From NCBI GenBank assembly GCA_024398135.1, contig CP073750.1, positions 1,798,001 through 1,862,000 on the forward strand: DNA of 64,000 bases, read 5' to 3'. Numbering within the stretch: position 1 is the stretch's first letter; each line of letters begins with the position of its first letter. The notes beneath the pieces were generated by a model. That model saw only the letters and a program-made list of their open reading frames with translations, did not search any database and was not told the origin of the DNA. This DNA comes from a bacterium SCSIO 12643. GTDB lineage: Bacteria > Bacteroidota > Bacteroidia > Flavobacteriales_G > Salibacteraceae. This document shows, piece after piece, positions 4,127-22,279 of the stretch. Both the position numbers and the translations under genes were made by a program.

Positions 4127-4133
4127 CAAAAAA

Positions 4134-4169
4134 GAACCGTGAAATAGGCTTCTATTTCACGGTTCTTTT
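4134..4169 (+). terminator. Rho-independent terminator after adhesin copy A
   Basis: A perfect 14-bp stem (GAACCGTGAAATAG with its complement at 4152-4165) closes a GCTT loop and is followed by TTTT. It starts 8 bases after the stop codon. Confidence 0.85.
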
Positions 4170-4262
4170 CATTTTTAATTTCAAATTAATAAAACTAATT
4201 GACTATAGTCAGGCAACTTTTGTTTTCATACGAACGTCACCAGCCTACATAAAACTATAGTT

Positions 4263-7200
4263 ATGAAGTTATTTTACCGTTATTTCGCCATTTTGTCTTT
4301 GGTGTTTTTGGGTTTTATCCAAAATACAAATGCATCCCATATTTCTGGGTTAGATTTTAATTATCAATGCATTGGACAAGACTCTTTTCTTGTTACTTTA
4401 AATATATTTAGAGATTGTAGTGGTATTCCTGCCCCTAATAATGTAACTATTAACTTTACCAGTACTTGTGGTGGGAATATTAATCAACTCTTCAATAAAA
4501 TAAATGGACCTAATGGTACAGAAGTATCTCAACTATGTCCTACAAGTATCAACAACTCTACTTGTAATGGGGGTACTCTACCTGGTATGCAGCAACACAT
4601 CTATCAAGGTATTGTTGTTTTAGCACCACCTTGTAATACCTGGACCATGTCATGGAGTACCTGTAATAGAAATACCACAGTTAACTTAGTTGGAGCACCA
4701 TGTTCTTATATCAGTGCTACACTAAATAGTGGAGTAGATACTTGTAACAACTCTCCAATGTTTAATGCACAACCAATTCCTTATGTGTGTATCAATCAGG
4801 TAGTAAATTATAACTTCGCTGTAACCGAGCCAGATGGAGATTCTATCGTTTATAGTTTTGTAAACCCTCTTTCTGCCGCTAATACTCCAGTGAACTTCGC
4901 TGCTGGTTATACTTTTAACCAACCAATTCCAGGGATTACATTAAATTCTACTACCGGTCAATTAACTTTCACCCCTACTATCTTAGGTAACTTCGTTATT
5001 GCCGTTCAGGTATGTGAATATGAATATGGAACAGGTATATTAAAGGCGTGTGTCACTCGTGATATCCAATTCGTTGTGATTAGTTGTTCTAATCAGCAAC
5101 CATTGGCTCCACCAGGTGGTATCTCTAACTTCCAGGGTACTGGTCTTCAAGTAGGTCCTGACTCTGTTGAAGTTTGTGTAGGTAACTGGTTTTCTTTCGA
5201 TCTTGTTTTTACTGATCCTGATGCTGCTGATACTGTTTCTCTGTTCTCTAACATTGCTACAGTTCTACCTGGTGCTACCGTTACTACTACTCCGGGTAAT
5301 CCTGCAACTATCAGTGTATCATGGATCGCTCAAGCTGGTTCCGCTCCATTTAATACTTTCACCGTTACCGGGGTTGATGACGCTTGTCCTACTCCTGGTC
5401 TTGTAACAGCTTCTTATAATGTCATCGTGGTCCCTTCTACCTATGCTGGTCCTGACCTCACTATTTGTCAGGGTACACAATGGGCTCAAATGGGTGCTGT
5501 TGGCGGTACTGTATTCACATGGTCTGTCCTTTCTGGTTCTCCGATCGATACCGTACCTTCTTCACCAGGTTATAACGCAACTTGTCAGACGTGTCAATTC
5601 CCGTCTTTCTCTCCAAATGTCACTACTACTTATATCGTTACTTCAAACCTTTCTGGTACTTGTGTAAATGTAGATACTGTTGTAGTGAATGTGGCTCCTA
5701 ACTTCAACTTAACAATGCCAAATGATACGCTTATTTGTTCGGTTGATGATTATCCACTTCAAATCTCTACGGATCAACCTTCTTTCTCTTACACTTATAA
5801 ATGGTCGCCTTCCAGTTCTCTGGATTATGATACTGTAATGGTTCCTTTGGCGAACCCTTCTGATCCTACTAACTACACTGTGACTGTAACTTCTGCGGGT
5901 GGATGTAAAAAGACTGGTTCTGTATTTATCGATCTTTCTCCTCCTTTCCCAAACAACATGCAAGTCACTGGGGATACCGTTCTTTGCGTAGGACAAACTA
6001 CACAGTTGGGTATTGATTATGGGCCTATTCCAGCCGGAAACTGTGGTCCTACAACACAAGGTTGTTTAGGGGTTGTACAAAATGGTGATATTGGTACGGG
6101 TACTGCAACTAATACTGGTAATACATTCCCTTCTATCTATGGAGGCTCTCGTTGGGGGGCTAAACACCAAATCATTTACCAACCTGCTGATCTAATCAGC
6201 ATGGGACTTGCTGCTGGAGGTATGTTAAACTCTATCGCTTTCTTTGTTAACACTGTGGGTACTCCTACTGTATATGACAACTTCGAAATCAAAATGGGTT
6301 GTACTTCTGAAATGGACCTTTCTAATGGTTGGATTTCTCCTGGTAACATGACTGTTGTGGTTCCGGCCAACTTGTACACTGTTGTGGCGGGTTGGAATGT
6401 TCACAACTTCAATACTGCTTATAAATGGGATGGTACTTCCAGTCTCGTTTTTGAAATCTGTTTCAACAACGTTGGTAATGCAGCTAATGGAAATAGCATC
6501 ATGCCTTATACTCCTACGGGGTATCAATCTGTGATTTACCAATCTGCAAATAACCAATCTGTTTGCCAGACTTATAGTTCTGTGGGAACATTTGGCGGAG
6601 CAACTTTAACCAATCAACGTCCTAATACCAGATTTAACTTCTGTGCTGGGGTTGATCCTGCTGCTTTGACATATTCATGGTCTCCTGCTGCTGGTTTAAG
6701 CAGTACTAATATCCCGGATCCTATCGCTGGGCCGCCAAATTCAATAACATACCAGGTGGTGGTTTCAGACACTTTCGGTGGGTGTGCGGATACGCTGACT
6801 CACCATATCAATATGGTAACTCAATTTGATGCAGGGTTTACTTTCAATGATCCTTATTGTGTGAGTGCTGATCCTGATTCTGCTACCGTAAACGTTGGTG
6901 GTGGATACTTCACAGGTACCGGTGTAGACTCCAGTGGACTCTTCGATCCTGCTCTTGCTGGTGTGGGTGTATTCCCTATCACTTATCATTTAACTACTCC
7001 GGCTCTTTGTGCCAATGATTCTACAATCAATGTTCAGGTTATCCCACTTCCGGATGCTTCCATTACTTATAATGAAGTGTGTGTCGGAGGGGCTCCTATC
7101 ACTCTGACTGCCGCTACTGCTGGTGGGGTATGGTCTGGGGCGGCTATTACAGATACTACTAATGGTGTCTTCGATCCTGTTGGACTTTCTGCCGGTACTT

Positions 7201-8693
7201 ATAATGTCGCTTATACTTTATATACTCCATGTCTAAGTTCTGACACTATGGGTATCAAAGTTATCGAACCTTATAACTTCACATTTAATCAGTTACAAGT
7301 TAACGTTTGTCAGGATGATACTGTACACGTAACTAATAACTATACACTTTCTAACAATCCTCTGCAAGGTGCTGGGCCGGTGAAAGCCATCTGGAGTGAT
7401 CCTACTGGTCGTATCGACTCTAATGGTGTTTTCGATGCCGATGGTGCTACTCCGGGTGATTATATCGTTACACTTTCTGTTACCGGTCTTGATGGTACTT
7501 GTGGTACTTCGAAAACCATGACCATTAAAGTCCTACAAAAAGATTATCCACAGTTCCCGAACGGACTTACTTTCTGTGATAATGAAGATAAAGCTACCAT
7601 CAGCGTTAGTCCTTGGTTATTCGGTAATGGTACTTCTTTCACGCAAACACCGATTAGTCCACTTGGACCTAATGATACGCTTGATATCAACGCTTTTGGT
7701 TCTAATGGTAGATTTGATGCAACTAATGCTCCGCTTGGTGCTTGGGTTCTTGAAGTGACTTATACCAACTTAAATGGTTGTACTGGTGTTAGTAGTGATA
7801 CTATCCGTGTACTGGAAACTCCTAGTGCTCCTTCTCCTAATCCTGCCGCTTATTGTGAAGGCGAAGATGTCTATCTTTTTGCTACTGCTTCTAATCCTGA
7901 TAGTCTTTACTGGTATAATGACATCAATCTTTTAGATACTGTCGGTATTGGTAATCCTACTTTCTGGGGGGTAGCTCCTAATCCAAATAGTGGTGATGTC
8001 TTCGTTTGGGTTACTGAAAACAATGATAGATGTATCTCTCCGGCTGTTAAATATCAATTGCCTATCAAAGATGCACCTACTGCTGAATTTGAAATGAACT
8101 TTACGGATACTACCGGTACTTCACAGTTTAATGTTCCACACTGGCAATCGCCTATCTATGGACATGCTCCGTTCAGTGTAGACTTTAAAGCTCTCAACAT
8201 TACTTCTACTGATTCTGTGGTTTGGTATCACCATTGGGAGAAACATCCTAACTCTCCTTCTGGATCTGTAAATACTACAAACTCTGATAATGTCACTTTC
8301 AGTTACAACTTAGCGAATCTTGATGAAAATGGTATGGCTATCGATTCTGCTTATATCAACCAATTAATCGTAACCAATGAGTTTGGCTGTAAGGATACTG
8401 CTCAAGCTTTAATCTGGAGTGTCGCTACTGAAGCTTTCTTCAACATCTTTACGCCTAATGGTGATGGTCAAAACGATGTATTCTATCTTCCTGTTTTTGG
8501 TTTAAAAGAATACAAAGTTGAAATCTACAACCGTTGGGGTAAGAAAGTTTATGAATGGACCGATCCTAACCAGGGATGGGCCGGAGAAGATCAACCAGAT
8601 GGAGTTTACTATTATGTTTTATCTGGAATCAGAAATGATGACTCTGAATATAAAAAACAAGGTACTGTGACTCTTACAGGGTCTGGTAGATAA
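4263..8693 (+). CDS. T9SS-secreted giant surface adhesin, copy B
   Basis: This is a complete 1,476-residue paralogue. An N-terminal signal peptide (charged MKLFYRYF, hydrophobic core, cleavage near NASHIS) is followed by a Bacteroidota head domain that begins HISGLDF and contains an FRDCSG motif and many cysteines. Ig/HYR-like domains follow (about 280-590), then a jelly-roll-like module (about 600-795), more beta domains with conserved CVGG and DTAQ-type linkers, and a type B T9SS sorting domain (about 1392-1476, FTPNGDGQNDVF). The protein is expected on the cell surface. Its sequence is a patchwork: around 6728-6775 it follows copy A, and from about 6780 it follows copy C. The gene stands alone between hairpins. 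Ligand and function are not visible from sequence. Confidence 0.9.
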   Translation: MKLFYRYFAILSLVFLGFIQNTNASHISGLDFNYQCIGQDSFLVTLNIFRDCSGIPAPNNVTINFTSTCGGNINQLFNKINGPNGTEVSQLCPTSINNSTCNGGTLPGMQQHIYQGIVVLAPPCNTWTMSWSTCNRNTTVNLVGAPCSYISATLNSGVDTCNNSPMFNAQPIPYVCINQVVNYNFAVTEPDGDSIVYSFVNPLSAANTPVNFAAGYTFNQPIPGITLNSTTGQLTFTPTILGNFVIAVQVCEYEYGTGILKACVTRDIQFVVISCSNQQPLAPPGGISNFQGTGLQVGPDSVEVCVGNWFSFDLVFTDPDAADTVSLFSNIATVLPGATVTTTPGNPATISVSWIAQAGSAPFNTFTVTGVDDACPTPGLVTASYNVIVVPSTYAGPDLTICQGTQWAQMGAVGGTVFTWSVLSGSPIDTVPSSPGYNATCQTCQFPSFSPNVTTTYIVTSNLSGTCVNVDTVVVNVAPNFNLTMPNDTLICSVDDYPLQISTDQPSFSYTYKWSPSSSLDYDTVMVPLANPSDPTNYTVTVTSAGGCKKTGSVFIDLSPPFPNNMQVTGDTVLCVGQTTQLGIDYGPIPAGNCGPTTQGCLGVVQNGDIGTGTATNTGNTFPSIYGGSRWGAKHQIIYQPADLISMGLAAGGMLNSIAFFVNTVGTPTVYDNFEIKMGCTSEMDLSNGWISPGNMTVVVPANLYTVVAGWNVHNFNTAYKWDGTSSLVFEICFNNVGNAANGNSIMPYTPTGYQSVIYQSANNQSVCQTYSSVGTFGGATLTNQRPNTRFNFCAGVDPAALTYSWSPAAGLSSTNIPDPIAGPPNSITYQVVVSDTFGGCADTLTHHINMVTQFDAGFTFNDPYCVSADPDSATVNVGGGYFTGTGVDSSGLFDPALAGVGVFPITYHLTTPALCANDSTINVQVIPLPDASITYNEVCVGGAPITLTAATAGGVWSGAAITDTTNGVFDPVGLSAGTYNVAYTLYTPCLSSDTMGIKVIEPYNFTFNQLQVNVCQDDTVHVTNNYTLSNNPLQGAGPVKAIWSDPTGRIDSNGVFDADGATPGDYIVTLSVTGLDGTCGTSKTMTIKVLQKDYPQFPNGLTFCDNEDKATISVSPWLFGNGTSFTQTPISPLGPNDTLDINAFGSNGRFDATNAPLGAWVLEVTYTNLNGCTGVSSDTIRVLETPSAPSPNPAAYCEGEDVYLFATASNPDSLYWYNDINLLDTVGIGNPTFWGVAPNPNSGDVFVWVTENNDRCISPAVKYQLPIKDAPTAEFEMNFTDTTGTSQFNVPHWQSPIYGHAPFSVDFKALNITSTDSVVWYHHWEKHPNSPSGSVNTTNSDNVTFSYNLANLDENGMAIDSAYINQLIVTNEFGCKDTAQALIWSVATEAFFNIFTPNGDGQNDVFYLPVFGLKEYKVEIYNRWGKKVYEWTDPNQGWAGEDQPDGVYYYVLSGIRNDDSEYKKQGTVTLTGSGR

Positions 8694-8728
8694 AAAACTA
8701 CCCTACTTTACATAACTCGAAAATGGAG

Positions 8729-8758
8729 AAAGGGCTCAATAATTTGAGCCCTTTTTTT
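8729..8758 (+). terminator. Rho-independent terminator after adhesin copy B
   Basis: An 11-bp stem (AAAGGGCTCAA / TTGAGCCCTTT) with a TAAT loop leads into a run of seven T. Confidence 0.88.
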
Positions 8759-8876
8759 GTGGAAAAAAAATAGGTTTTTTTTCTATATTCTTTTGTTTAC
8801 ATTCGCTGCGTACATTATTTTAAATGTATTTAACATTCAGAATATTAATATATCGCCTTCGTATAAAACTATAATT

Positions 8877-11800
8877 ATGAAGTTATTTTACCGTTATTTC
8901 GCCATTTTGTCTTTGGTGTTTTTGGGGTTTATCCAAAATACAAACGCCACTCACATTTCTGGTCTAGACTTTAGTTATCAATGTGTTGGACAGGACTCAT
9001 TTCTGGTTTCACTCAATCTTTTTAGAGATTGTAGTGGGGTCTCTGCACCTAATAATGTAACTGTTAATTTTACCAGTACTTGTGGTGGTTCTGTAACTGC
9101 AACATTCAATAAAATAAATGGACCTAATGGTACAGAAGTATCTCAACTATGTCCTACAAGTATCAACAACTCTACTTGTAATGGAGGTACTCTACCTGGT
9201 ATGCAGCAACACATCTACCAAGGTATTGTTGTTTTAGCACCACCTTGTAATACCTGGACCATGTCATGGAGTACTTGTTGTAGAAATACCACAGTTAACT
9301 TAGTTGGACAACCAGGTTCTTACATCCAGGCGACTTTGAATAGTGGTGTGGATACATGTAACAGTTCTCCTGTTTTCAATGCACAACCAATTCCTTATGT
9401 GTGTATCAATCAGGTAGTAAATTATAACTTCGCTGTAACCGAGCCAGATGGAGATTCTATCGTTTATAGTTTTGTAAACCCTCTTTCTGCAGCTAATACC
9501 CCAGTGAACTTTAATGCTGGTTATACTTTTAACCAACCAATTCCAGGGATTACATTAAATTCTACTACCGGTCAATTAACTTTCACTCCTACTATCTTAG
9601 GTAACTTCGTTATTGCCGTTCAAGCTTGTGAATATGAATATGGGACTGGGGTTCTAAAAGGTTGTGTAACACGTGATATCCAATTCGTTGTGATTAGCTG
9701 TGCCAACCAACAGCCATTGGCTCCACCAGGTGGTATCTCTAACTTCCAGGGTACTGGTCTTCAAGTAGGTCCTGACTCTGTTGAAGTTTGTGTAGGTAAC
9801 TGGTTCTCTTTCGATCTTGTGTTTACTGATCCTGATGCTGCTGATACTGTTTCTCTGTTCTCTAACATTGCTACAGTTCTACCTGGTGCTACCGTTACTA
9901 CTACTCCGGGTAATCCTGCAACTATCAGTGTATCATGGATCGCTCAAGCTGGTTCCGCTCCATTTAACTCTTTCACCGTTACCGGAGTCGATGACGCTTG
10001 TCCTACTCCTGGTCTTGTAACAGCTTCTTATAATGTCATCGTGGTCCCTTCTACCTATGCTGGTCCTGACCTCACTATTTGTCAGGGTACACAATGGGCT
10101 CAAATGGGTGCTGTTGGCGGTACTGTATTCACATGGTCTGTCCTTTCTGGTTCTCCGATCGATACCGTACCTTCTTCACCAGGTTATAACGCAACTTGTC
10201 AGACGTGTCAATTCCCGTCTTTCTCTCCAAATGTCACTACTACTTATATCGTTACTTCAAACCTTTCTGGTACTTGTGTAAATGTAGATACTGTTGTAGT
10301 GAATGTGGCTCCTAACTTCAACTTAACAATGCCAAATGATACGCTTATCTGTTCTGTTGATGATTATCCGCTTCAAATCTCTACGGATCAACCTTCTTTC
10401 TCTTACACTTATAAATGGTCGCCTTCCAGTTCTCTGGATTATGATACTGTAATGGTTCCTTTGGCGAACCCTTCTGATCCTACTAACTACACTGTGACTG
10501 TAACTTCTGCGGGTGGATGTAAAAAGACTGGTTCTGTATTTATCGATCTTTCACCTCCTTTCCCTGTGGATATGCAAGTTACTGGGGATACCGTTCTTTG
10601 CGTAGGACAAACTACACAGTTGGGTATTGATTACGGAACAATCCCAGCTAGTAATTGTGGACCTACAACACAAGGTTGTTTAGGTGTTGTACAAAATGGT
10701 GATATTGGTACGGGTACTGCAACTAATACAGGTAACACCTTCCCTTCTATCTATGGGGGATCTCGTTGGGGTGCTAAACACCAAATCATTTATCAACCTG
10801 CTGATCTAATCAGCATGGGACTTGCTGCTGGAGGTATGTTAAACTCTATCGCTTTCTTTGTTAACACTGTAGGTACTCCTACTGTATATGACAACTTCGA
10901 AATCAAAATGGGTTGTACTTCTGAAATGGACCTTTCTAATGGTTGGGTTTCTCCTGGTAACATGACTGTTGTGGTTCCGGCCAACTTGTACACTGCTGTG
11001 GCGGGTTGGAATGTTCACAACTTCAATACTGCTTATAAATGGGATGGTACTTCCAGTCTCGTTTTTGAAATCTGTTTCAACAACGTTGGTAATGCAGCTA
11101 ATGGGAATAGCATCATGCCTTATACTCCTACGGGGTATCAATCTGTGATTTACCAATCTGCAAACAATCAATCTGTTTGTCAAACTTATAGTCAAATTGG
11201 TTTTGGTGGAGCAACTTTAACCAATCAACGTCCAAATACCAGATTTAACTTCTGTGCTGGGGTTGATCCTGCTGCTCTAAACTACTCCTGGTCTCCTGCA
11301 ACTGGTTTAAGTAGTACTAATATTCCGGATCCTATCGCTGGGCCTCCTGCTTCTACTACTTATCAAGTAATTATCTCTGATACTTTCGGTGGGTGTGCGG
11401 ATACTTTAACACACCATATCAATATGGTAACTCAATTTGATGCAGGGTTTACTTTCAATGATCCTTATTGTGTGAGTGCTGATCCTGATTCTGCTACCGT
11501 AAACGTTGGTGGTGGATACTTCACTGGTACCGGTGTAGACTCTAGTGGACTCTTCGATCCTGCTCTTGCTGGTGTGGGTGTATTCCCTATCACTTATCAT
11601 TTAACTACTCCGGCTCTTTGTGCCAATGATTCTACGATCAATGTTCAGGTTATCCCACTTCCGGATGCTTCCATTACTTATAATGAAGTGTGTGTCGGAG
11701 GGGCTCCTATCACTCTGACTGCCGCTACTGCTGGTGGTGTATGGTCTGGGGCGGCTATCACAGATACCGTAAATGGTGTCTTCGATCCTGTTGGACTTTC

Positions 11801-13304
11801 TGCCGGTACTTATAATGTCGCTTATACTTTATACACTCCATGTCTAAGTTCTGACACTATGGGTATCAAAGTTATCGAACCTTATAACTTCACATTTAAT
11901 CAGTTACAAGTTAACGTTTGTCAGGATGATACTGTACACGTAACTAATAACTATACACTTTCTAACAATCCTCTGCAAGGTGCTGGGCCGGTGAAAGCCA
12001 TCTGGAGTGATCCTACTGGTCGTATCGACTCTAATGGTGTTTTCGATGCCGATGGTGCTACTCCGGGTGATTATATCGTTACACTTTCTGTTACCGGTCT
12101 TGATGGTACTTGTGGTACTTCGAAAACCATGACCATTAAAGTCCTACAAAAAGATTATCCACAGTTCCCGAACGGGCTTACTTTCTGTGATAATGAAGAT
12201 AAAGCTACCATCAGCGTTAGTCCTTGGTTATTCGGTAATGGTACTTCTTTCACGCAAACACCGATTAGTCCACTTGGACCTAATGATACGCTTGATATCA
12301 ATGCTTTTGGTTCTAATGGTAGATTTGATGCAACTAATGCTCCGCTTGGCGCTTGGGTTCTTGAAGTGACTTATACCAACTTAAATGGTTGTACTGGTGT
12401 TAGTAGTGATACTATCCGTGTACTGGAAACTCCTAGTGCTCCTTCTCCTAATCCTGCCGCTTATTGTGAAGGGGAAGATGTATATCTTTTTGCTACTGCT
12501 TCTAATCCTGATAGTCTTTACTGGTATAATGACATCAACCTTTTAGATACTGTCGGTATTGGTAATCCTACTTTCTGGGGGGTAGCTCCTAATCCAAATA
12601 GTGGTGATGTCTTCGTTTGGGTTACTGAAAACAATGATAGATGTATCTCTCCGGCTGTTAAATATCAATTGCCTATCAAAGATGCACCTACTGCTGAGTT
12701 TGAAATGAACTTTACTGATACTACCGGTACTTCTCAGTTTAATGTTCCGCACTGGCAATCGCCTATCTATGGACATGCTCCGTTCAGTGTAGACTTTAAA
12801 GCTCTCAACATTACTTCTACTGATTCTGTGGTTTGGTATCACCATTGGGAGAAACATCCTAACTCTCCTTCTGGATCTGTAAATACTACAAACTCTGATA
12901 ATGTCACTTTCAGTTACAACTTAGCGAATCTTGATGAAAATGGTATGGCTATCGATTCTGCTTATATCAACCAATTAATCGTAACCAATGAGTTTGGCTG
13001 TAAGGATACTGCTCAAGCTTTAATCTGGAGTGTCGCTACTGAAGCTTTCTTCAACATCTTTACGCCTAATGGTGATGGTCAAAACGATGTATTCTATCTT
13101 CCTGTTTTTGGTTTAAAAGAATACAAAGTTGAAATCTACAACCGTTGGGGTAAGAAAGTTTATGAATGGACCGATCCTAACCAGGGATGGGCCGGAGAAG
13201 ATCAACCAGATGGAGTTTACTATTATGTTTTATCCGGAATCAGAAATGATGACTCTGAATATAAAAAACAAGGTACTGTGACTCTTACAGGGTCTGGTAG
13301 ATAA
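8877..13304 (+). CDS. T9SS-secreted giant surface adhesin, copy C
   Basis: This is a 1,475-residue paralogue with the same order as copy B: signal peptide, cysteine-rich head, Ig/HYR-like domains, jelly-roll-like module, type B sorting domain. I chose the ATG at 8877 because it matches the start of copy B exactly; the reading frame stays open 40 codons further up, but that extension runs back into the terminator of copy B and is not conserved. Distinctive changes are a TCCRN motif where copy B has TCNRN, a shortened QIGFGG segment near 11195, and a divergent stretch around 11270-11395. From about 12170 to 13240 it carries copy A alleles, while the last 15 codons are again copy B-like, showing recombination between copies. 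Surface exposure is inferred from the sorting domain. Confidence 0.9.
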   Translation: MKLFYRYFAILSLVFLGFIQNTNATHISGLDFSYQCVGQDSFLVSLNLFRDCSGVSAPNNVTVNFTSTCGGSVTATFNKINGPNGTEVSQLCPTSINNSTCNGGTLPGMQQHIYQGIVVLAPPCNTWTMSWSTCCRNTTVNLVGQPGSYIQATLNSGVDTCNSSPVFNAQPIPYVCINQVVNYNFAVTEPDGDSIVYSFVNPLSAANTPVNFNAGYTFNQPIPGITLNSTTGQLTFTPTILGNFVIAVQACEYEYGTGVLKGCVTRDIQFVVISCANQQPLAPPGGISNFQGTGLQVGPDSVEVCVGNWFSFDLVFTDPDAADTVSLFSNIATVLPGATVTTTPGNPATISVSWIAQAGSAPFNSFTVTGVDDACPTPGLVTASYNVIVVPSTYAGPDLTICQGTQWAQMGAVGGTVFTWSVLSGSPIDTVPSSPGYNATCQTCQFPSFSPNVTTTYIVTSNLSGTCVNVDTVVVNVAPNFNLTMPNDTLICSVDDYPLQISTDQPSFSYTYKWSPSSSLDYDTVMVPLANPSDPTNYTVTVTSAGGCKKTGSVFIDLSPPFPVDMQVTGDTVLCVGQTTQLGIDYGTIPASNCGPTTQGCLGVVQNGDIGTGTATNTGNTFPSIYGGSRWGAKHQIIYQPADLISMGLAAGGMLNSIAFFVNTVGTPTVYDNFEIKMGCTSEMDLSNGWVSPGNMTVVVPANLYTAVAGWNVHNFNTAYKWDGTSSLVFEICFNNVGNAANGNSIMPYTPTGYQSVIYQSANNQSVCQTYSQIGFGGATLTNQRPNTRFNFCAGVDPAALNYSWSPATGLSSTNIPDPIAGPPASTTYQVIISDTFGGCADTLTHHINMVTQFDAGFTFNDPYCVSADPDSATVNVGGGYFTGTGVDSSGLFDPALAGVGVFPITYHLTTPALCANDSTINVQVIPLPDASITYNEVCVGGAPITLTAATAGGVWSGAAITDTVNGVFDPVGLSAGTYNVAYTLYTPCLSSDTMGIKVIEPYNFTFNQLQVNVCQDDTVHVTNNYTLSNNPLQGAGPVKAIWSDPTGRIDSNGVFDADGATPGDYIVTLSVTGLDGTCGTSKTMTIKVLQKDYPQFPNGLTFCDNEDKATISVSPWLFGNGTSFTQTPISPLGPNDTLDINAFGSNGRFDATNAPLGAWVLEVTYTNLNGCTGVSSDTIRVLETPSAPSPNPAAYCEGEDVYLFATASNPDSLYWYNDINLLDTVGIGNPTFWGVAPNPNSGDVFVWVTENNDRCISPAVKYQLPIKDAPTAEFEMNFTDTTGTSQFNVPHWQSPIYGHAPFSVDFKALNITSTDSVVWYHHWEKHPNSPSGSVNTTNSDNVTFSYNLANLDENGMAIDSAYINQLIVTNEFGCKDTAQALIWSVATEAFFNIFTPNGDGQNDVFYLPVFGLKEYKVEIYNRWGKKVYEWTDPNQGWAGEDQPDGVYYYVLSGIRNDDSEYKKQGTVTLTGSGR

Positions 13305-13416: not shown

Positions 13417-16400
13417 ATGAAAAATCTCTACAAACTTAGTTTAACACTAATTATCAGCCTGTTATCGTTTGTTTCGAGTGACGTTTTCGCTACTCACTTA
13501 ACTGGAGCTGACTTTCAATACATCTGTATGGGAAGAGGCCCTGTAAACGATACAATTTTACTTAGATTAAATGTTTTTAGAGATTGTGCAGGTATTAACC
13601 CCCCAAATACCATTGATGTTACCATTGCCAATTCCTGTGGTGTTGGAGTAACAAATACAATGACTCAAGTTGCCGTAAATGGTATTGAGGTATCATTCTT
13701 ATGTGGACCTTTAATTGGTCAAAGTACATGTAATGGAGGTTCACAACCTGGTATGAAAATTTATACTTATGAATTCTTATACATCCTTCCATCTTCTTGT
13801 TCCGGAGCTCTTCAAGCATCCGCCACGGGAGGAACTCCAGGTTTTAATTATTCCTGGCCTATGGGACTTACTGGATCAGATATTGATTTATTATGTGCTG
13901 GTAATTATCAGGTAACTATTCAAGATAATAATGGCTGTACGATAACTGATACAATGGAATTGGTTGATATGGCCGGTATGAAACTTACTGCAACTGTTTC
14001 TGAAATTTCATGTAATGGCGCTTGTGATGGAAGTATTACTGTAACACCGACATTAGGAACCGCCCCATTTGTATATAATTGGCAAGATGGTGCTTCGGGA
14101 AATTCCAGAACCAACTTATGTCCTGGACTTTATTCGGTAACCGTTATGGATGATGACGGAAGTCAATATGCCTACTGGGTAAATTTAGAAAACCCTACCC
14201 CCATTTTCTCTAACTTCATCGTTGAAGATGAATCATGTGCTTCAGCTTGCGATGGCATTATACGCACAGAAGTTACCGGTGGAACTCCTCCATATACTTA
14301 TGCCTGGTCCGGAGGTTTAACAGGAAATATCCAGGCAAACGTTTGCCCGGGAATCTATACAGTTACCATAACAGATGCTAACAGTTGTTCTACTACTTCA
14401 TCAGTAACGGTTAATGCCGCAACAGCACTTAATTCATCATTTACACTAAATAATGCCATTTTATGTAATGGCGCTTGTAATGCTTCTGTTACCGTTTCGG
14501 CAACTGGGGGTGTTGCACCATATTCCTTTGAATGGGATAATGGATTTACTGGTACTACCCAAACTAATTTATGTGCAGGAACCTATGTTGTAACCGCTAC
14601 TGATGCCAATGGTTGTACTTCTGTACAAAATATTGTTATTACACAACCTTCAGCTATTTCTCCTAATCCAGGAATAACAAATTCAACTTGCGCTGGTACT
14701 ACTGGCTCAATTAGCTTATCACCATCCGGAGGTGTTGCGCCTTATTCTTATAACTGGAATATTACACCAAACCCAGGTAATACTAATACAGTGACCAACC
14801 TTCAAGCTGGTTCCTATCAAGTCACCATTACAGATGCCAATGGTTGTGCATCTACACATTCTTTTGGTGTAAGTAATATTGGAGGTCCAACATCGTCAGG
14901 GGCATCCATTACTCCACCATCTTGTAATGGAAATAGTAATGGTATTATCGCATTAACTCCAATTGGAGGTACTGCACCTTACACCTATGCATGGAGTACA
15001 GGTCAAACTACAAGTTCAATTTCTAACCTTGCAGCAGGTGATTATACTGTTACTGTAACAGATAATGGTGGTTGTATTTTAGTTGATATTATTACTGTAA
15101 CAGATCCACAAGCTATTTCTGTAGCTTTAACTTCGACAGATCCTTCTTGTAATGGTGTATGTGATGGAACTATTGCCATTACACCTTCTGGAGGTACCGG
15201 AGGTTATAACGTACTTTGGAGTAATGGTGGTACCGGACTTTCTCAATCTAACTTATGTTCCGGAACTTATTCACTAACCGTAACAGACGGTAATGGATGT
15301 ACTTTCGCTCAAAACAACATTGTTCTAACAGATCCTGCTGTTCTTCAGGATTCAATTACATTAAATACAGTAATAAATTGTAATGGTGATTGTAATGGTG
15401 AACTTCAGGCGTATCCTTATGGAGGTACAGCTCCGTATTCTTATAGCTGGAGTAATGGTACTTCTCTACAAAAAAATTATGATCTGTGTGCTGGACTTCA
15501 TATCGTGACTATTACTGATGCAAATGGATGTACGGTTGTAGATTCATTTACCATTACACAACCTTTACCAATTATTCCAAATATCAATCAGGTCTCAGGT
15601 GTAACTTGTAGTGGACTATGGTTTGGTGGTTGGGGTTCTTGTTGTAGACCAGCAGGAGCTGTAAATACTAACACTGGTAACTTCTATAGTGATTTTAAAA
15701 TGAATCAGACTCTTCCTCAGGGAGATTGTAATAGTGGAGTAGAATTTGAAGATAATCCTAATGCGCATCCACTACGTTATGTATGTATGGGTGATACTTT
15801 ATGTTACAACTTTGGAGTTACTGAATCCAATGGTGACAGTTTAGTCTTTGAATTAATCCCGGCTAAAGCAACAGCAACTACAAATGTGGTATATAATACT
15901 GTTGGAACCACAGTTTATTCTGGGACCAATCCAATTGATGGTATTACTTTAAATCCTGCTACAGGTGAAGTTTGCTTTGTTGCGCAACCTGTTGGTAGAT
16001 ATGTAGTCGCTATTCAAGTAAGTGAGTATGATCCTGTCACCGGATTGTTTAAAGGTCAAAACATGAGAGATATTCTCTTTATTGTTCAGGCTTGTCCCCC
16101 TAATACTCCTCCTACCGGAACCAATATCGTCAACTTTGATTCAACTGGTGGAGCTCAACAAACAGGACCTGCTTCTATTGAAATGTGTGAAGGAGATAGT
16201 TTCTGTTTTGACATCGTATTCCACGATTCTGATCTTGTGGATACCAACATGTTTGTTTTCACTAACCTTCAAGATTGGTTAAATGGTCCTAATCCTTCTG
16301 ATACTGCGACCATCGTTAATACTGTTCTGGATACTGTAATCATTAATGGTGATTCGTTGATGGAAATCACCAGTACCATCTGTTGGACTGCCCCACCTAA

Positions 16401-19400
16401 TAGTGGAGGTACCTATAACTTCTATGTCGCGGTCAATGATGATCACTGTACGGTCCCCAAGGATTTCTTCCGAGCCATTACAGTCAATGTCACCGGAAGT
16501 ACGGTCGCATGGCCTGATGCCACCATCTGTGGTAATCAATCCGCACAAATCTTCTCTGCCGGAGGTACCGCTTTCTCCTGGAATGCCATATCTGGTGATC
16601 CTATTCAGGTCGGAGTCAACTTCTCTTGTGATTCCTGTGCTTCTCCCGTTGCATCACCTTCACAAACAACTACATATGTCGTCACCAGTAACATCAATAG
16701 TGCTTGTCAAAACTCTGATACCGTCACCATCACTGTTGCGCCTGACTATCAGGTGATCGCTACTCCCGATACCATCCTTTGTAACATTGATACCATTCAA
16801 CTCAATGCTACTGCAACCATTCCGGGGACTTTCACCTATCAGTGGAACAACTCCGCTTCCCTTTCCAATGATGCTATCGCAAATCCTGTGGCTGTCCCTC
16901 CGGGTTCTACTGTATACTCTGTCACCATGACTTCTAGTGATGGGTGTCAGAAAAACTCTACTGCTAACATTATTATCACTCCTCCTTTCCCTGTCCTCAA
17001 TCCGGTAGCTATCGATACTGCTTTGTGTGGAAACGGAGATAGTACCCAACTTAATGTCGAATTCCTGCATGGTAACACCACTTCTTGTGGGCCTAGTTAT
17101 TCTCAATGTCTGAGCACAACTACTTCTACCGATATCGGGACTGGTACCACTTCTAATGGTACCACTACATATCCTGCTCCGTTCGGTAACTTTAGAGAAA
17201 CTGCTAAACATCAATTCCTATATCGTGCTTCTGAGCTTACTGCTATGGGGCTCACTGCCGGAATGATCACCGAAATCGGGTTTGATGTCGCTTCTATCAA
17301 TGGTACCACAAACTATAATGACTTCACCGTCAAAATGGAGTGTACTTCTTTGACTTCTCTTCCTGCTACTTTCCAGGCCGTGAATACTACTGTATTCCCT
17401 GCTGCAAATATCACCATCTCTTTAGGCTGGAACATGCTAGTCTTCTCTACGCCTTACATCTGGGATGGAACCTCCAGTTTATTAGTTGAAGTCTGTTTCG
17501 ATAACTCTTCTTCGGTTACTACTTCTAATTCTGCAACCAGATTCTCCGCTACTCCATTTACCAGTTCTTTGTATTATGCCAACAACTTTAATAATGCTTG
17601 TTCTGCCCCTGGAGCTCCTAGTCCTTTGTTCCAAAGACCTAACACCAGATTCTCTTTCTGTGATGGAGCCGATACTGCTGCTTATACTTATTCCTGGGCA
17701 CCTAATGTGAACATCTCTGATACTTCTATCATCAATCCTTTTGTCTGGCCGGATGCCACTCAAAACTATCAGGTCATTGTCAATGATACTTTCGGGGTCT
17801 GTTCGGATACTGCTGATATCACCATCTATGTCGGTGAACTTGAAATTGGTAATGATACTTTGATCTGTGAAGGTGATTCTGTACAGTTCAATCCTAATGT
17901 TGTTGCCATTTGTCCAAATGGTACTGATACCTATTCCTGGTCTCCTACCACTGGACTTAGCAATCCTAATATTGCCAATCCTGTCGCTACTGTAACGCAA
18001 ACTACAAACTATGTCCTCACTTACACCAACTCTTGTGGCTGTACACTTATGGATACCGTTACCGTCTTTGTCAACAATATGCTCAATCCAAATAGAGTAT
18101 TAACGCATCCTACTTGTGGTTTGGCTGATGGTGAGATTCTTATTAATAGTGTCGGGGGATCTGCTCCTTTCACTTTTAGTATCGACTCCGGAGCTACTTT
18201 TGTAACTACAAATAACTTCACTGCTTTAGCAATGGGGGGATATCATATTCAGGTTCAGGATAGCAATGGCTGTTTATCTCCTATGGTAACTGATACATTG
18301 ATCAATCCTGGAACTCCTATCGTGGATAGTATCTCTACTGTCGATCCTAGTTGTTTTGGATTTACTGATGGAGAAATCACTATTCATGCTACCGGAGGTA
18401 CAAATCCGCTACGTTATAGCATCTCAGGCGGGGCGCCATTTTTGATTAACAATCATTTTACCAATCTTGCGGCTGGTGCTTACACCATCGTTGTCAGAGA
18501 TGATAGTTTATGTGAAACATTCCCCCAAACTGTTAATCTAGTGAGTAACAATCAACTCTTCTTAGATTCTATTCAGGCTTCTAACTTACTTTGTTTCCAG
18601 GATTCTTCCGGGTCTATCGAAGTATTTGGACATGGAGGTACTTCGCCTTTAACTTATTCTATCGATAATGGAATATCTTATGATCCTTCTGCTTTATTCA
18701 ATGGTTTAAGTGCCGGATCTTATAACATCATCATCAAGGATGCTATTGGATGTACTACCACAATGCAAAATCAGGTCTTAACTGAACCTACCTTGTTAAG
18801 TGCTACCGTATATCCTACCAATGATACTTGTTTCAATGCTTGTGGTGGAGCGGCTAATGCGGTGGTCAATGGTGGTACGCAACCTTACACCTATTCATGG
18901 AAAAAAGGCGTCAACATCATTGGTGCCAATAGCAGTAATGTAAGTGGATTATGTCAGGGGATCGATTATGAGTTTACCGTTGTTGATTCTAACAATTGTG
19001 TGCAAGCGATTCCTTTTGTCATCACTCATCCTGATCTACTTGTCGCTTCTTTCTCTTCAACTAACATCTCTTGTTATGGCGCAAATGATGGGACACTTTC
19101 TTTAAGTGCTACAGGGGGTACTGCGCCTTATCAGTATAGTATTGATGGTGGAAATACTTTTAGTAATTCTCCTAACTTCTCTGCTTTGGCTCCAGGTACT
19201 TATAACATCGTTGTTGCTGATTCAGGGTTTAGATGTGATGCAACTGTAACTGCGATCTTAACTGAACCTTCGCAGATTACTATCTCTTCTAATATCACTC
19301 AAAAACAATTATGTCTTACCGGATGTACTCAGTTGATTGCTTCTGCTGTGGGTGGGGTCGGACCTCCTTACAACTACATCTGGAATCAGGGTTTAGATTC

Positions 19401-20556
19401 TAATGGAACGCAAACTGCTTGTCCTACACAGACTACCATTTACTCTGTTTATGCTGCGGATACCAATGGTTGTACTTCTGATCCTATTGGTATTACTTTA
19501 ACACTCTATGATTCTTTAACTGTCGATGCAGGTCCAAATCAGGATTTATGCCCTGAAGAATCTGCGCAGCTTTCTGCCATCGCTTCAGGAGGAAATGGAA
19601 ATGGTTTGAGTTATCAATGGACCCCTGCTGCTGGATTAGATAATCCCTTTATCTCCAATCCTACTGCAAAGCCTTTTAATTCTACGCTCTATACCGTTAA
19701 AGTAACGGACAACTGTGAAACGCCTGCAGCTTATGATTCTGTGTGGGTCAATGTACACCCACTTCCAACTATGGGATTCTATGCCAAGGATACCACTGAA
19801 GGCTGTGAACCTTTTGATATTACTTTAGTCAATACTTCTGCTCCGGTGCAATTTGCAGAGTGGTCTATTCCCGGTACTGAGATTACAGCTCATGGATTCC
19901 AGGTTGATATTACTGATTTAACTGAAGGTGTATATGATGTTCACTTAAGAGTTATCACGCCATTTGGTTGTGAAAATGAAATCACACAAACTGATTTTAT
20001 CACAGTGCATCCTCTTCCAATTGCTAAGTTCAACATGAATCCGGATCAAACCACCATTTACAATACTGTGGTACAATTTAAAGATCAGTCTATCGGGGAT
20101 ATCCAAAGTTGGGCATGGGACTTTAGTAGTTTAGACTCTGCTACAGAGCAAAATCCTACTTATAAATTCCCAGCTGATACAGGAAACTATCCTGTAACAC
20201 TTGAAGTGACTACAACCAAATCTTGTAAAAACGATGTGACACAACTTCTTAGAATTGGAGCTGAGTATAACATCTTTGTTCCTAATTCATTCACACCAAA
20301 CGGTGATGGACAGAACGATGTATTTGCTCCGAGAGCAGTAGGAATGGACATGTCTAAATACTCTCTGATTATTTATGATCGTTGGGGAGGAATTGTATTT
20401 GAATCCACTGATCTCAATCAACCTTGGGATGGACGTGTTCAAGGTTCAACCAAAATGGCTCAGAACGGTGTTTATGTCTGGCGCATCGTAGCCCATGAAG
20501 CTACAGATGAAGCTGAGGGTCATATCTACAACGGAACAGTTAATCTTATCAGATAA
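13417..20556 (+). CDS. Giant SprB-repeat adhesin with type B T9SS sorting domain
   Basis: This 2,379-residue secreted protein is related to the three upstream adhesins. Its signal peptide ends near VFATHLTG, followed by the same head domain (FRDCAG, CNGG..PGM). At residue 130 the head is interrupted by a block of about eight SprB-type repeats (GGTAPYTYxW...AGxYTVTVTDxNGC), and it resumes at residue 731 (CSGLWFGGWGSCC). Ig/HYR-like domains, a jelly-roll-like module (about 1222-1420), five or six more SprB-like repeats (about 1565-2050), a PKD-like domain (about 2205-2280) and a type B sorting domain (about 2285-2379, FTPNGDGQNDVF) follow. SprB of Flavobacterium johnsoniae is a mobile gliding adhesin with similar repeats, so a surface adhesin role is likely, but orthology is not claimed. 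Confidence 0.9.
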   Translation: MKNLYKLSLTLIISLLSFVSSDVFATHLTGADFQYICMGRGPVNDTILLRLNVFRDCAGINPPNTIDVTIANSCGVGVTNTMTQVAVNGIEVSFLCGPLIGQSTCNGGSQPGMKIYTYEFLYILPSSCSGALQASATGGTPGFNYSWPMGLTGSDIDLLCAGNYQVTIQDNNGCTITDTMELVDMAGMKLTATVSEISCNGACDGSITVTPTLGTAPFVYNWQDGASGNSRTNLCPGLYSVTVMDDDGSQYAYWVNLENPTPIFSNFIVEDESCASACDGIIRTEVTGGTPPYTYAWSGGLTGNIQANVCPGIYTVTITDANSCSTTSSVTVNAATALNSSFTLNNAILCNGACNASVTVSATGGVAPYSFEWDNGFTGTTQTNLCAGTYVVTATDANGCTSVQNIVITQPSAISPNPGITNSTCAGTTGSISLSPSGGVAPYSYNWNITPNPGNTNTVTNLQAGSYQVTITDANGCASTHSFGVSNIGGPTSSGASITPPSCNGNSNGIIALTPIGGTAPYTYAWSTGQTTSSISNLAAGDYTVTVTDNGGCILVDIITVTDPQAISVALTSTDPSCNGVCDGTIAITPSGGTGGYNVLWSNGGTGLSQSNLCSGTYSLTVTDGNGCTFAQNNIVLTDPAVLQDSITLNTVINCNGDCNGELQAYPYGGTAPYSYSWSNGTSLQKNYDLCAGLHIVTITDANGCTVVDSFTITQPLPIIPNINQVSGVTCSGLWFGGWGSCCRPAGAVNTNTGNFYSDFKMNQTLPQGDCNSGVEFEDNPNAHPLRYVCMGDTLCYNFGVTESNGDSLVFELIPAKATATTNVVYNTVGTTVYSGTNPIDGITLNPATGEVCFVAQPVGRYVVAIQVSEYDPVTGLFKGQNMRDILFIVQACPPNTPPTGTNIVNFDSTGGAQQTGPASIEMCEGDSFCFDIVFHDSDLVDTNMFVFTNLQDWLNGPNPSDTATIVNTVLDTVIINGDSLMEITSTICWTAPPNSGGTYNFYVAVNDDHCTVPKDFFRAITVNVTGSTVAWPDATICGNQSAQIFSAGGTAFSWNAISGDPIQVGVNFSCDSCASPVASPSQTTTYVVTSNINSACQNSDTVTITVAPDYQVIATPDTILCNIDTIQLNATATIPGTFTYQWNNSASLSNDAIANPVAVPPGSTVYSVTMTSSDGCQKNSTANIIITPPFPVLNPVAIDTALCGNGDSTQLNVEFLHGNTTSCGPSYSQCLSTTTSTDIGTGTTSNGTTTYPAPFGNFRETAKHQFLYRASELTAMGLTAGMITEIGFDVASINGTTNYNDFTVKMECTSLTSLPATFQAVNTTVFPAANITISLGWNMLVFSTPYIWDGTSSLLVEVCFDNSSSVTTSNSATRFSATPFTSSLYYANNFNNACSAPGAPSPLFQRPNTRFSFCDGADTAAYTYSWAPNVNISDTSIINPFVWPDATQNYQVIVNDTFGVCSDTADITIYVGELEIGNDTLICEGDSVQFNPNVVAICPNGTDTYSWSPTTGLSNPNIANPVATVTQTTNYVLTYTNSCGCTLMDTVTVFVNNMLNPNRVLTHPTCGLADGEILINSVGGSAPFTFSIDSGATFVTTNNFTALAMGGYHIQVQDSNGCLSPMVTDTLINPGTPIVDSISTVDPSCFGFTDGEITIHATGGTNPLRYSISGGAPFLINNHFTNLAAGAYTIVVRDDSLCETFPQTVNLVSNNQLFLDSIQASNLLCFQDSSGSIEVFGHGGTSPLTYSIDNGISYDPSALFNGLSAGSYNIIIKDAIGCTTTMQNQVLTEPTLLSATVYPTNDTCFNACGGAANAVVNGGTQPYTYSWKKGVNIIGANSSNVSGLCQGIDYEFTVVDSNNCVQAIPFVITHPDLLVASFSSTNISCYGANDGTLSLSATGGTAPYQYSIDGGNTFSNSPNFSALAPGTYNIVVADSGFRCDATVTAILTEPSQITISSNITQKQLCLTGCTQLIASAVGGVGPPYNYIWNQGLDSNGTQTACPTQTTIYSVYAADTNGCTSDPIGITLTLYDSLTVDAGPNQDLCPEESAQLSAIASGGNGNGLSYQWTPAAGLDNPFISNPTAKPFNSTLYTVKVTDNCETPAAYDSVWVNVHPLPTMGFYAKDTTEGCEPFDITLVNTSAPVQFAEWSIPGTEITAHGFQVDITDLTEGVYDVHLRVITPFGCENEITQTDFITVHPLPIAKFNMNPDQTTIYNTVVQFKDQSIGDIQSWAWDFSSLDSATEQNPTYKFPADTGNYPVTLEVTTTKSCKNDVTQLLRIGAEYNIFVPNSFTPNGDGQNDVFAPRAVGMDMSKYSLIIYDRWGGIVFESTDLNQPWDGRVQGSTKMAQNGVYVWRIVAHEATDEAEGHIYNGTVNLIR
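13807..15615 (+). repeat. SprB-type repeat cassette (about 8 units) nested in the head domain
   Basis: The encoded residues 131-733 contain about eight units of 65-80 residues, each with a GG(T/V)xPY core, a W about five residues later, an L(C/A)AGxY segment and a TVTDxNGC ending. The units are diverged in DNA sequence, so they are old repeats and not a recent expansion. Confidence 0.8.
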
Positions 20557-20845: not shown

Positions 20846-22279
20846 TTATAGAACCCAACTGATGATAAAAACACCATTATGCGCTTTCATGGATTGAATC
20901 CACTGTTTTCCTCCCCTCTCTTCAATCGTATTTTTTGACATATGAATTTTATACTCATCGAAGTTTAAATCTGATAATTCTTTATTCTCAATTTTAACCA
21001 ACCTCTCCTTAAATTTATTGGTTAATCCCATAAACTTAATTTCACAAATCGCACCGTCTTCAACTATTGAAATCTTCACTTTGCCTGAAGTCTCTACATC
21101 AGAAATAAGTTCAAAATAAGGCGACAAGACCCTTTTTAATAATTCAACATCCGTTTTTACGGTTGGCATATCAGCAACTTGCTCAAATTCTACCTGATCG
21201 TTATTATTTGAACTCGAAATCAAAATTTCACTAATTAATTGAGTCAAGTATACTTCCTTCTGATTCTTATTCGTGTGCCCATGCTTGGACTGATTAAAAT
21301 AATCTCCCACCAGCGCATTTAACTGCGCTATAGTATTCGTCATGGTACTCCATCCTATTTGTTGCGCAATATTGGTTTGATTTTCTAAAATCTCTTTTTG
21401 CCTGTTTAACACTTTTAGATAATCACCTAAGTCTGTTGCAGCATTAAAATAAACCAGATTCTTATCTTGCTTGACCTGATTTGCAGTGTGAATAGCCACT
21501 TTTAAACTCTCCTGTAATTTCATTACTTGCGCTACCTTGGTTTTTAAGAGCAAAGCACTTTCTTTCTCCTTATTGATCGCAGTGTTCATTGCACTCTCCG
21601 ATTTCCGAACTCTAGTCTTCCATTTACCAACTAAAAGTTGAATTTGATGTAAACTACGTCTCAGTGGCTTAATAATCAAAAAATACGCGGAAATCAGCAA
21701 AAACAAGTAAACAAAATTTGATATCCCTAACCATTTGTACATCGATAGACTATTGTTCGAATTCATCTCCATCGACCAATTTCTTAATGCTCTTAACCCA
21801 GCTATATAAGCTTTGGTTTTTGACTCTAATTGAGATTGAATAACTTCTCTGTTTTCAAGAACCCCTTTGTCGTTATTTAAAATAAGCTCGGTTATTCCCA
21901 AATAACTATTGTGAACCCTATGAATCTCCTGAATTTTACTATCGATATCCGACTTATCTATTCCAGATAAATATTCGGATTCAACCAATGCCCCATTCAA
22001 TACTTTCACTTCTTGAATTCCATCCTTTAAAATTTCAACAGAATGATTCGCAGTCGAACTATCAGCTATAACCAGCAAACAATTATCTGATAATTGCTCT
22101 ACCTTAGATTCTTGACTTTCTATGGCATTAATAAAACCTAAATGTGTTCCTATATTTTCATAGTTTTTGCGAATAAAAAACAATGAAATCAACAATATCA
22201 CACTACAAGCCAATAGAATAATCCATGAGATTTTAATAATCTTTGAATTACGTTCTAATTGGATATCCTTATCAGTCAT
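20846..22279 (-). CDS. Two-TM sensor-like protein, degenerate histidine kinase
   Basis: The 477-residue protein has a cytoplasmic start, TM1 at about 16-36, a roughly 145-residue periplasmic helical region resembling the PilJ/NIT-type sensor folds, TM2 at about 184-204, and then a long coiled coil. Next comes a dimerisation-like helix pair (about 295-330) that reads IAQQIGW where a kinase would show an HE or HD H-box. The C-terminal 130 residues look like a worn HATPase domain without recognisable N, G1 or G2 boxes. It therefore is unlikely to autophosphorylate. It may be a pseudokinase, a scaffold or a receptor that works with another kinase. No response regulator lies next to it. Family assignment is uncertain. 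Confidence 0.6.
   Translation of the reverse strand: MTDKDIQLERNSKIIKISWIILLACSVILLISLFFIRKNYENIGTHLGFINAIESQESKVEQLSDNCLLVIADSSTANHSVEILKDGIQEVKVLNGALVESEYLSGIDKSDIDSKIQEIHRVHNSYLGITELILNNDKGVLENREVIQSQLESKTKAYIAGLRALRNWSMEMNSNNSLSMYKWLGISNFVYLFLLISAYFLIIKPLRRSLHQIQLLVGKWKTRVRKSESAMNTAINKEKESALLLKTKVAQVMKLQESLKVAIHTANQVKQDKNLVYFNAATDLGDYLKVLNRQKEILENQTNIAQQIGWSTMTNTIAQLNALVGDYFNQSKHGHTNKNQKEVYLTQLISEILISSSNNNDQVEFEQVADMPTVKTDVELLKRVLSPYFELISDVETSGKVKISIVEDGAICEIKFMGLTNKFKERLVKIENKELSDLNFDEYKIHMSKNTIEERGGKQWIQSMKAHNGVFIISWVL

Follow-up and report, generated by a model that had tools for sequence, protein, structure and literature searches.

Background

Stalk arrays of surface adhesins are usually pictured as following on from the head, one after the other. 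The SprB-repeat proteins of the Bacteroidota (PF13573), such as Flavobacterium johnsoniae SprB, resemble at the family level the protein described here, which has similar repeats, giant size and a T9SS-type C-terminus. One such protein of 3716 residues in the same genome carries its repeats after an intact head, whereas the array that we describe interrupts a head loop.

The nearest solved relative that we found for these repeats is grappling hook protein A (GhpA) from Aureispira sp. CCB-QB1 (9flp and 9flv among others), which was matched by a profile search (E 5.7e-27), although a single-sequence search of the cassette against the PDB returned nothing at 0.001. GhpA also filled the top eight rows of our structural comparison (Z 10.3-12.0, rmsd 8-74 Å; for repeats, Z may reflect a common arrangement only). 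When compared with GhpA fragments, stretches of about four repeats fitted at 8.2-9.9 Å rmsd and those of about seven repeats at 72.6-73.7 Å; the large seven-repeat values may reflect a sharp bend or only uncertain placement. When the profile of the head was compared with PDB sequences, GhpA was not among the five matches at E up to 1. Ixotrophy grappling hooks, according to a review (PMC11205867), are heptamers of a T9SS-secreted protein that attach to prey flagella. This illustrates one use to which such repeats can be put and does not tell the function of the giant protein.

Domains placed within domains have been described in other adhesins. The beta-sandwich inserted in class II TED adhesin domains (PMC9210967) is likewise a domain within another one, whereas the insert described here consists of eight tandem domains. 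For antigen I/II (adhesin P1) of Streptococcus mutans, PMC8286594 has the N-terminal part folding to the C-terminal stalk domains, with the middle on top. Its named domains differ from those of the giant protein, and its fold-back joins separate domains, whereas the giant's array sits within a single sandwich. Among the titles and abstract openings listed in our searches of open-access literature, we found none on a repeat array nested in a head.

The giant protein and its interrupted head

The window, i.e. the whole stretch of 64,000 nucleotides that was analysed, corresponds to C1:1798001-1862000 in a genome that consists of one contig of 4.12 Mb. At its start lies a tandem of four related surface proteins, namely copy A (frame of 1368 aa, cut by the window edge), copy B (1476 aa), copy C (1515 aa) and a giant protein (giant1) encoded by an open frame of 2379 aa at 13417-20556 on the plus strand. 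All four share an N-terminal head of two domains, but copies A-C have intact heads and a C-terminal part unlike that of the giants. Judged by eye, the C-terminal parts of the three copies (20-13304) are near-identical and their heads differ more, which suggests homogenisation. On the other side of giant1 an adjoining 477-aa gene (20846-22279, minus strand) has no Pfam match at 0.001; a homologue of it (41% over 312 aa) stands beside a giant-like tail in a related genome (G002 C63).

All features of giant1 given here are on the plus strand. A signal-peptide-like segment (residues 1-24, 13417-13488), read from the sequence alone, is followed by the first part of head domain 1 (residues 25-128, strands A-E, ending at C128; 13489-13800). 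The second part of this domain (strands F and G, residues 734-763) comes only at 15616-15705 and is followed by head domain 2, which is cadherin-like (residues 765-895, 15709-16101) as judged from the profile and from the fold of the corresponding domain in intact copy C. Strands were assigned from the structural models described below. Outside the head, the tail contains a second SprB-type stretch at 18103-19158, with at least three PF13573 matches among those listed. A T9SS type B sorting domain (CHU_C) lies at the C-terminus (residues 2287-2371, 20275-20529; PF13585 65 bits, TIGR04131 44 bits) and is also present at the C-terminus of copy C.

Over the whole of giant1, SprB (PF13573) matched 12 stretches with 309 bits (E 2e-94). 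Stalk-type SprB arrays and a CHU_C anchor, both features of fibrillar adhesins, are thus present together, and no known adhesive domain appeared among the Pfam matches of the whole giant or of the copy C head, the latter giving none at all at E up to 0.1. In a scan of 57 intact heads, 25 match PF24908 (best E 9.8e-05), which stands for the second Ig-like domain in integrin beta-like proteins A-E and may or may not indicate kinship; PF23616 is matched by eight (best E 0.0043) and other families by six or fewer. Elsewhere in the genome, a 4476-residue frame at C1:118293-129845 contains many regularly spaced SprB repeats.

The original prediction held that the head of the giant matches copies A-C on both sides of an insert of about 600 residues. 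We compared the proteins with a profile of 13 intact heads, which included copies A-C and left the giant out. Copies B and C matched it unbroken over positions 1-254 with 428 bits, partly by construction. The giant matched it in two complementary pieces, residues 25-129 covering positions 1-100 (102.1 bits) and residues 731-894 covering positions 99-251 (123.0 bits), and in all three proteins with this split (hereafter site 1) the profile halves meet at positions 98-100. The distance from the loop cysteine to the first Trp/Tyr of the next strand is three residues in 53 of the 57 intact heads and five in one, the other three being missed by the pattern. The same distance in the giant, from C128 to W735, is 607 residues, i.e. 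a net insertion of 604, and the frame stays open throughout, as had been predicted.

The inserted cassette consists of eight repeats spaced by 74-79 residues. Repeat 1 (13801-14004), which lacks the leading C-x-G motif, was placed by repeat spacing and repeat comparison. The other seven exceeded the Pfam SprB cut-off among the matches listed (150 of 301 candidates scored) and lie at 14005-14229, 14230-14457, 14458-14679, 14680-14916, 14917-15141, 15142-15372 and 15373-15597 (repeats 2 to 8); repeat 5 is joined to repeat 6 by a long Gly/Ser/Pro-rich linker. The eight SprB-type repeats expected between the flanks were thus all found. The right junction (residues 728-733, GVTCSG; 15598-15615) resembles the opening of a further, ninth repeat. 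CSG tripeptides had been noted on both sides of the cassette, and they do stand there in the giant. As the signature of a duplication, however, they had to be given up, since the left tripeptide is CPG in a paralogue and CAG in an orthologue, and the two copies in the giant use different serine codons (TGT TCC GGA and TGT AGT GGA).

Predicted fold of the intact and the split head

The AlphaFold prediction for the intact head of copy C (57 rows) is confident (pLDDT 91.6, pTM 0.89) and has two domains. Strands of the first domain are predicted at residues 4-13, 18-28, 37-44, 49-56, 86-96 (E), 104-110 (F) and 125-131, and the second domain, starting at about residue 136, aligns with cadherin repeats (e.g. 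Z 6.7 over 92 residues at 2.1 Å, where Z may reflect a common arrangement only). The site of the cassette falls in the seven-residue loop 97-103 (copy C numbering) between strands E and F. The breakpoint is therefore inside the first beta-sandwich and not between the domains, which agrees with the earlier proposal of a stalk-type module placed within another domain and not appended to it. Together with the complementary profile halves of three proteins, this predicted loop position supports the cassette as an intra-domain insertion.

The split protein was modelled over 879 residues with 100 rows, which gave a mean pLDDT of 83.2 and a pTM of 0.48. This model places strands matching A-E before the cassette and strands at 710-718 and 731-739, which would be F and G, after it. 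Within the cassette, pLDDT drops below 50 at 464-467 and nowhere else; these residues belong to the linker that follows repeat 5. Intact and split heads were aligned across the 600-residue gap by adding half-head rows. We infer that the split sandwich could still fold as one domain in cis, although the low pTM of the model counts against it. A straight line of eight Ig-like domains would put its two ends tens of nanometres apart, so a short loop could not bridge a straight array without fold-back.

A second giant and an orthologue in another genus

The genome has at least ten heads, eight of them intact and two split (14 matches counted by profile). The second split protein (giant2, L021; C1:1160214-1167431) is a 2405-residue frame with the same split and the same repeats. 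A third was found in UBA10426, of another genus of the Flavobacteriales (G005, DNTB01000087.1), where a frame of 2424 residues has its head interrupted at this loop, too, and directly follows a relative of copies A-C, as in the window. Net insertions are 604, 607 and 605 residues in giant1, giant2 and UBA10426, respectively. With a few repeat anchors in the relatives set by hand, 8 of 8 repeats of giant1 and giant2 had their best-scoring partners in matching succession, and 7 of 8 did so in the comparison with UBA10426. Because the repeat order matches, the array was most simply inherited as a block, and because the split is common to a member of another genus, the cassette is old.

The two giants of the genome are unevenly related along their length. 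Residues 1095-2134 of giant1 (16699-19818 in the window, about 3.1 kb) correspond to giant2 without one base difference counted, whereas head and cassette are strongly diverged, apart from patches of the cassette in which identity is high. We read the identical part as a recent gene-conversion block beside an old shared split. Silent differences between the paralogue heads are indeed many (pS 0.68 in the first part).

For this one paralogue pair, itself with gene-conversion patches, dN and dS were 0.25 and 1.74 in the first part of the head, 0.14 and 0.68 in the cassette, and 0.12 and 0.87 in the second part of the head. Near-invariant head positions number 58; of these, 47 are retained by giant1, 46 by giant2, 41 by UBA10426 and 50 by a fourth split protein, G023 (see below). 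Five intact orthologues retain 45-55, so that UBA10426 falls below all five counted. Since dN is below dS and conserved positions are retained, the head has been kept up to either side of the cassette, to the smallest degree in UBA10426.

Ancestry of the split form

Related proteins were defined by the tail of giant1 (residues 1476-2225). The tail tree has 23 rows, of which 12 have intact heads, three are split at site 1, one is split at a second site, one has another N-terminus and six are unassigned; G013 was counted as intact although its head sits in a neighbouring frame, and the tails of G001 C9, G002 C63, G023 C61 and G009 C21 start at contig ends. The giants group with 100/100 support with two contig-end tails and with a protein of a congener that has an intact head (G002 C98). 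One tail relative, L116 (G008 C29, 5878-9732), lies downstream of a gene of the copy A-C type and has another N-terminus in place of the head.

Orthologues free of the cassette, which the original prediction had suggested looking for, therefore exist, including one in a congener. In the head tree (32 rows, 28 of them intact) the site-1 split heads group together at 88/90, a supported but not strong grouping, and the fewest changes between intact and split forms are two. Given the intact-headed relatives and these two changes, the split form is most simply derived from an intact head, though it is old.

Construction and origin of the split head

Our reading of giant1, which we consider probable on the whole, is that it is a T9SS-type surface protein, probably an adhesin, in which eight Ig-like SprB repeats were inserted into the E-F loop of a two-domain head that would still fold in cis. 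One alternative is that the head is no longer one domain and that strands A-E on one side, and F-G with the cadherin-like domain on the other, belong to separate units at the two ends of a rod, with F-G for example completing a ninth SprB-like domain. The resemblance of the right junction (IPNINQVSGVTCSG) to the start of a ninth repeat would fit such units, as would the long stretches of homologous GhpA repeats that have been solved and the pTM of 0.48 of the split model. Against them, at positions 101-135 (F-G) each of the site-1 heads, three in number, retains 6 of the 8 near-invariant residues, a count that three of the five intact orthologues do not exceed, and dN/dS is about 0.14 in both head parts. 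We therefore think separate units unlikely. Conservation of both parts would also fit a sandwich completed in trans by F-G of a neighbouring molecule, by which a monomeric head would become a self-assembling filament, and a straight rod would presumably hold the two parts too far apart for closure in cis. But fold-back would permit closure in cis, for which the low-confidence point after repeat 5 in the model may offer a place, and we regard pairing in trans as quite improbable; if true, it would be a new way of building filaments from giant adhesins.

The remaining two alternatives concern the gene and not the fold. SprB arrays consist of repeats, and over about 3.1 kb the paralogues do not differ at all, circumstances in which assembly or binning might have fused a repeat array to a head. 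The same split nevertheless occurs at two loci of a single-contig genome and in the separate UBA10426 assembly, the three split loci have diverged sequences with a conserved repeat order, and the identical block comes only after head and cassette, so that an artefact is hardly credible. A split ancestor, from which cassette loss gave rise to the intact heads, would fit the age of the split, as reflected in the silent divergence of the paralogue heads, but intact heads make up 28 of the 32 in the head tree, and two changes suffice, which makes this order of events very improbable.

Under the preferred reading, insertion in the E-F loop with closure in cis, an array of eight SprB repeats would have entered the loop of the first beta-sandwich in frame, and the cassette would leave and re-enter at one edge of the sandwich, either as a lateral arm or as a folded-back rod, presenting its repeat surface beside the head. 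We infer that the giant is delivered by the T9SS as a surface adhesin, with the cassette as a lateral arm of the head. As a plausible route of origin, the head loop and an SprB array may have recombined in frame at their C-x-G codons, and the two paralogues would later have undergone gene conversion. SprB repeats start with C-x-G, and a C-x-x-G-x-W motif is present at the E-F loop of some intact heads (G015 C92, G015 C266 and G020 C279). At the giant1 junctions only TGT and GGA are common, around a different serine codon, so no signature of recombination is left there.

Nested domain insertion is of a known kind; what stands out here is the size of the insert, an eight-domain array, and its retention. 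An eight-domain array in one head loop, common to two genera, departs from the usual end-to-end design. It offers a test case for the size of insert that a beta-sandwich tolerates and for the path by which a rod comes back to where it began; it also marks the E-F loop as a cargo-accepting site in a poorly described head family.

A second cassette site and the spread of split heads

In G023, which belongs to a different genus, a 2041-residue frame has eight repeats between its two head domains (profile positions 2-141 and 134-252), seven of them found by pattern and one set by hand. This second site is the domain boundary, where the cassette is joined end to end; the nested arrangement is found at site 1 only. 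The closest relative of the G023 tail, in G020, has an intact head (100/100 in the tail tree), whereas its neighbours in the head tree are the intact heads of G019 (97/84), and the histories of its head and tail thus differ. A single origin of the four cassettes was rejected in the form of one clade of all four split heads (p-AU 0.0059). Judging from these trees, the G023 cassette is probably independent of that at site 1. The kinship of the two kinds of cassette is less clear, as is any shared order of repeat types: between giant1 and G023 only 1 of 8 best-scoring partners stands at the same place and 3 of 8 are shifted by one, and one alignment set the two arrays in a one-repeat shift.

We searched for further split heads with queries spanning the junctions; since limited numbers of candidates were scored per genome, the resulting site-1 frequencies are lower bounds. 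The left-junction query gave three spanning matches among those listed, in 2 of 395 class genomes (seven candidates scored for most), and among 35 family genomes the same proteins, at least three, in two genomes (at most 81 candidates scored). For site 2, no match ran from end to end of the query in 295 class genomes with up to 16 candidates each, a search without a positive control in that the known G023 was not among the matches listed; two matches extended from the repeat as far as the first few residues of domain 2 (query 5-79 and 7-85).

The right-junction query recovered, in the 395 class genomes, the three true matches together with near-full-query matches in one genus (g25 of family f10). 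In the five regions inspected, from four of these genomes, the longest frames show intact heads; further matches stood in G377, G318, G395, G411 and G295. A head was also found in a record titled Chloroflexi bacterium isolate J033 (L097), possibly a mislabelled bin.
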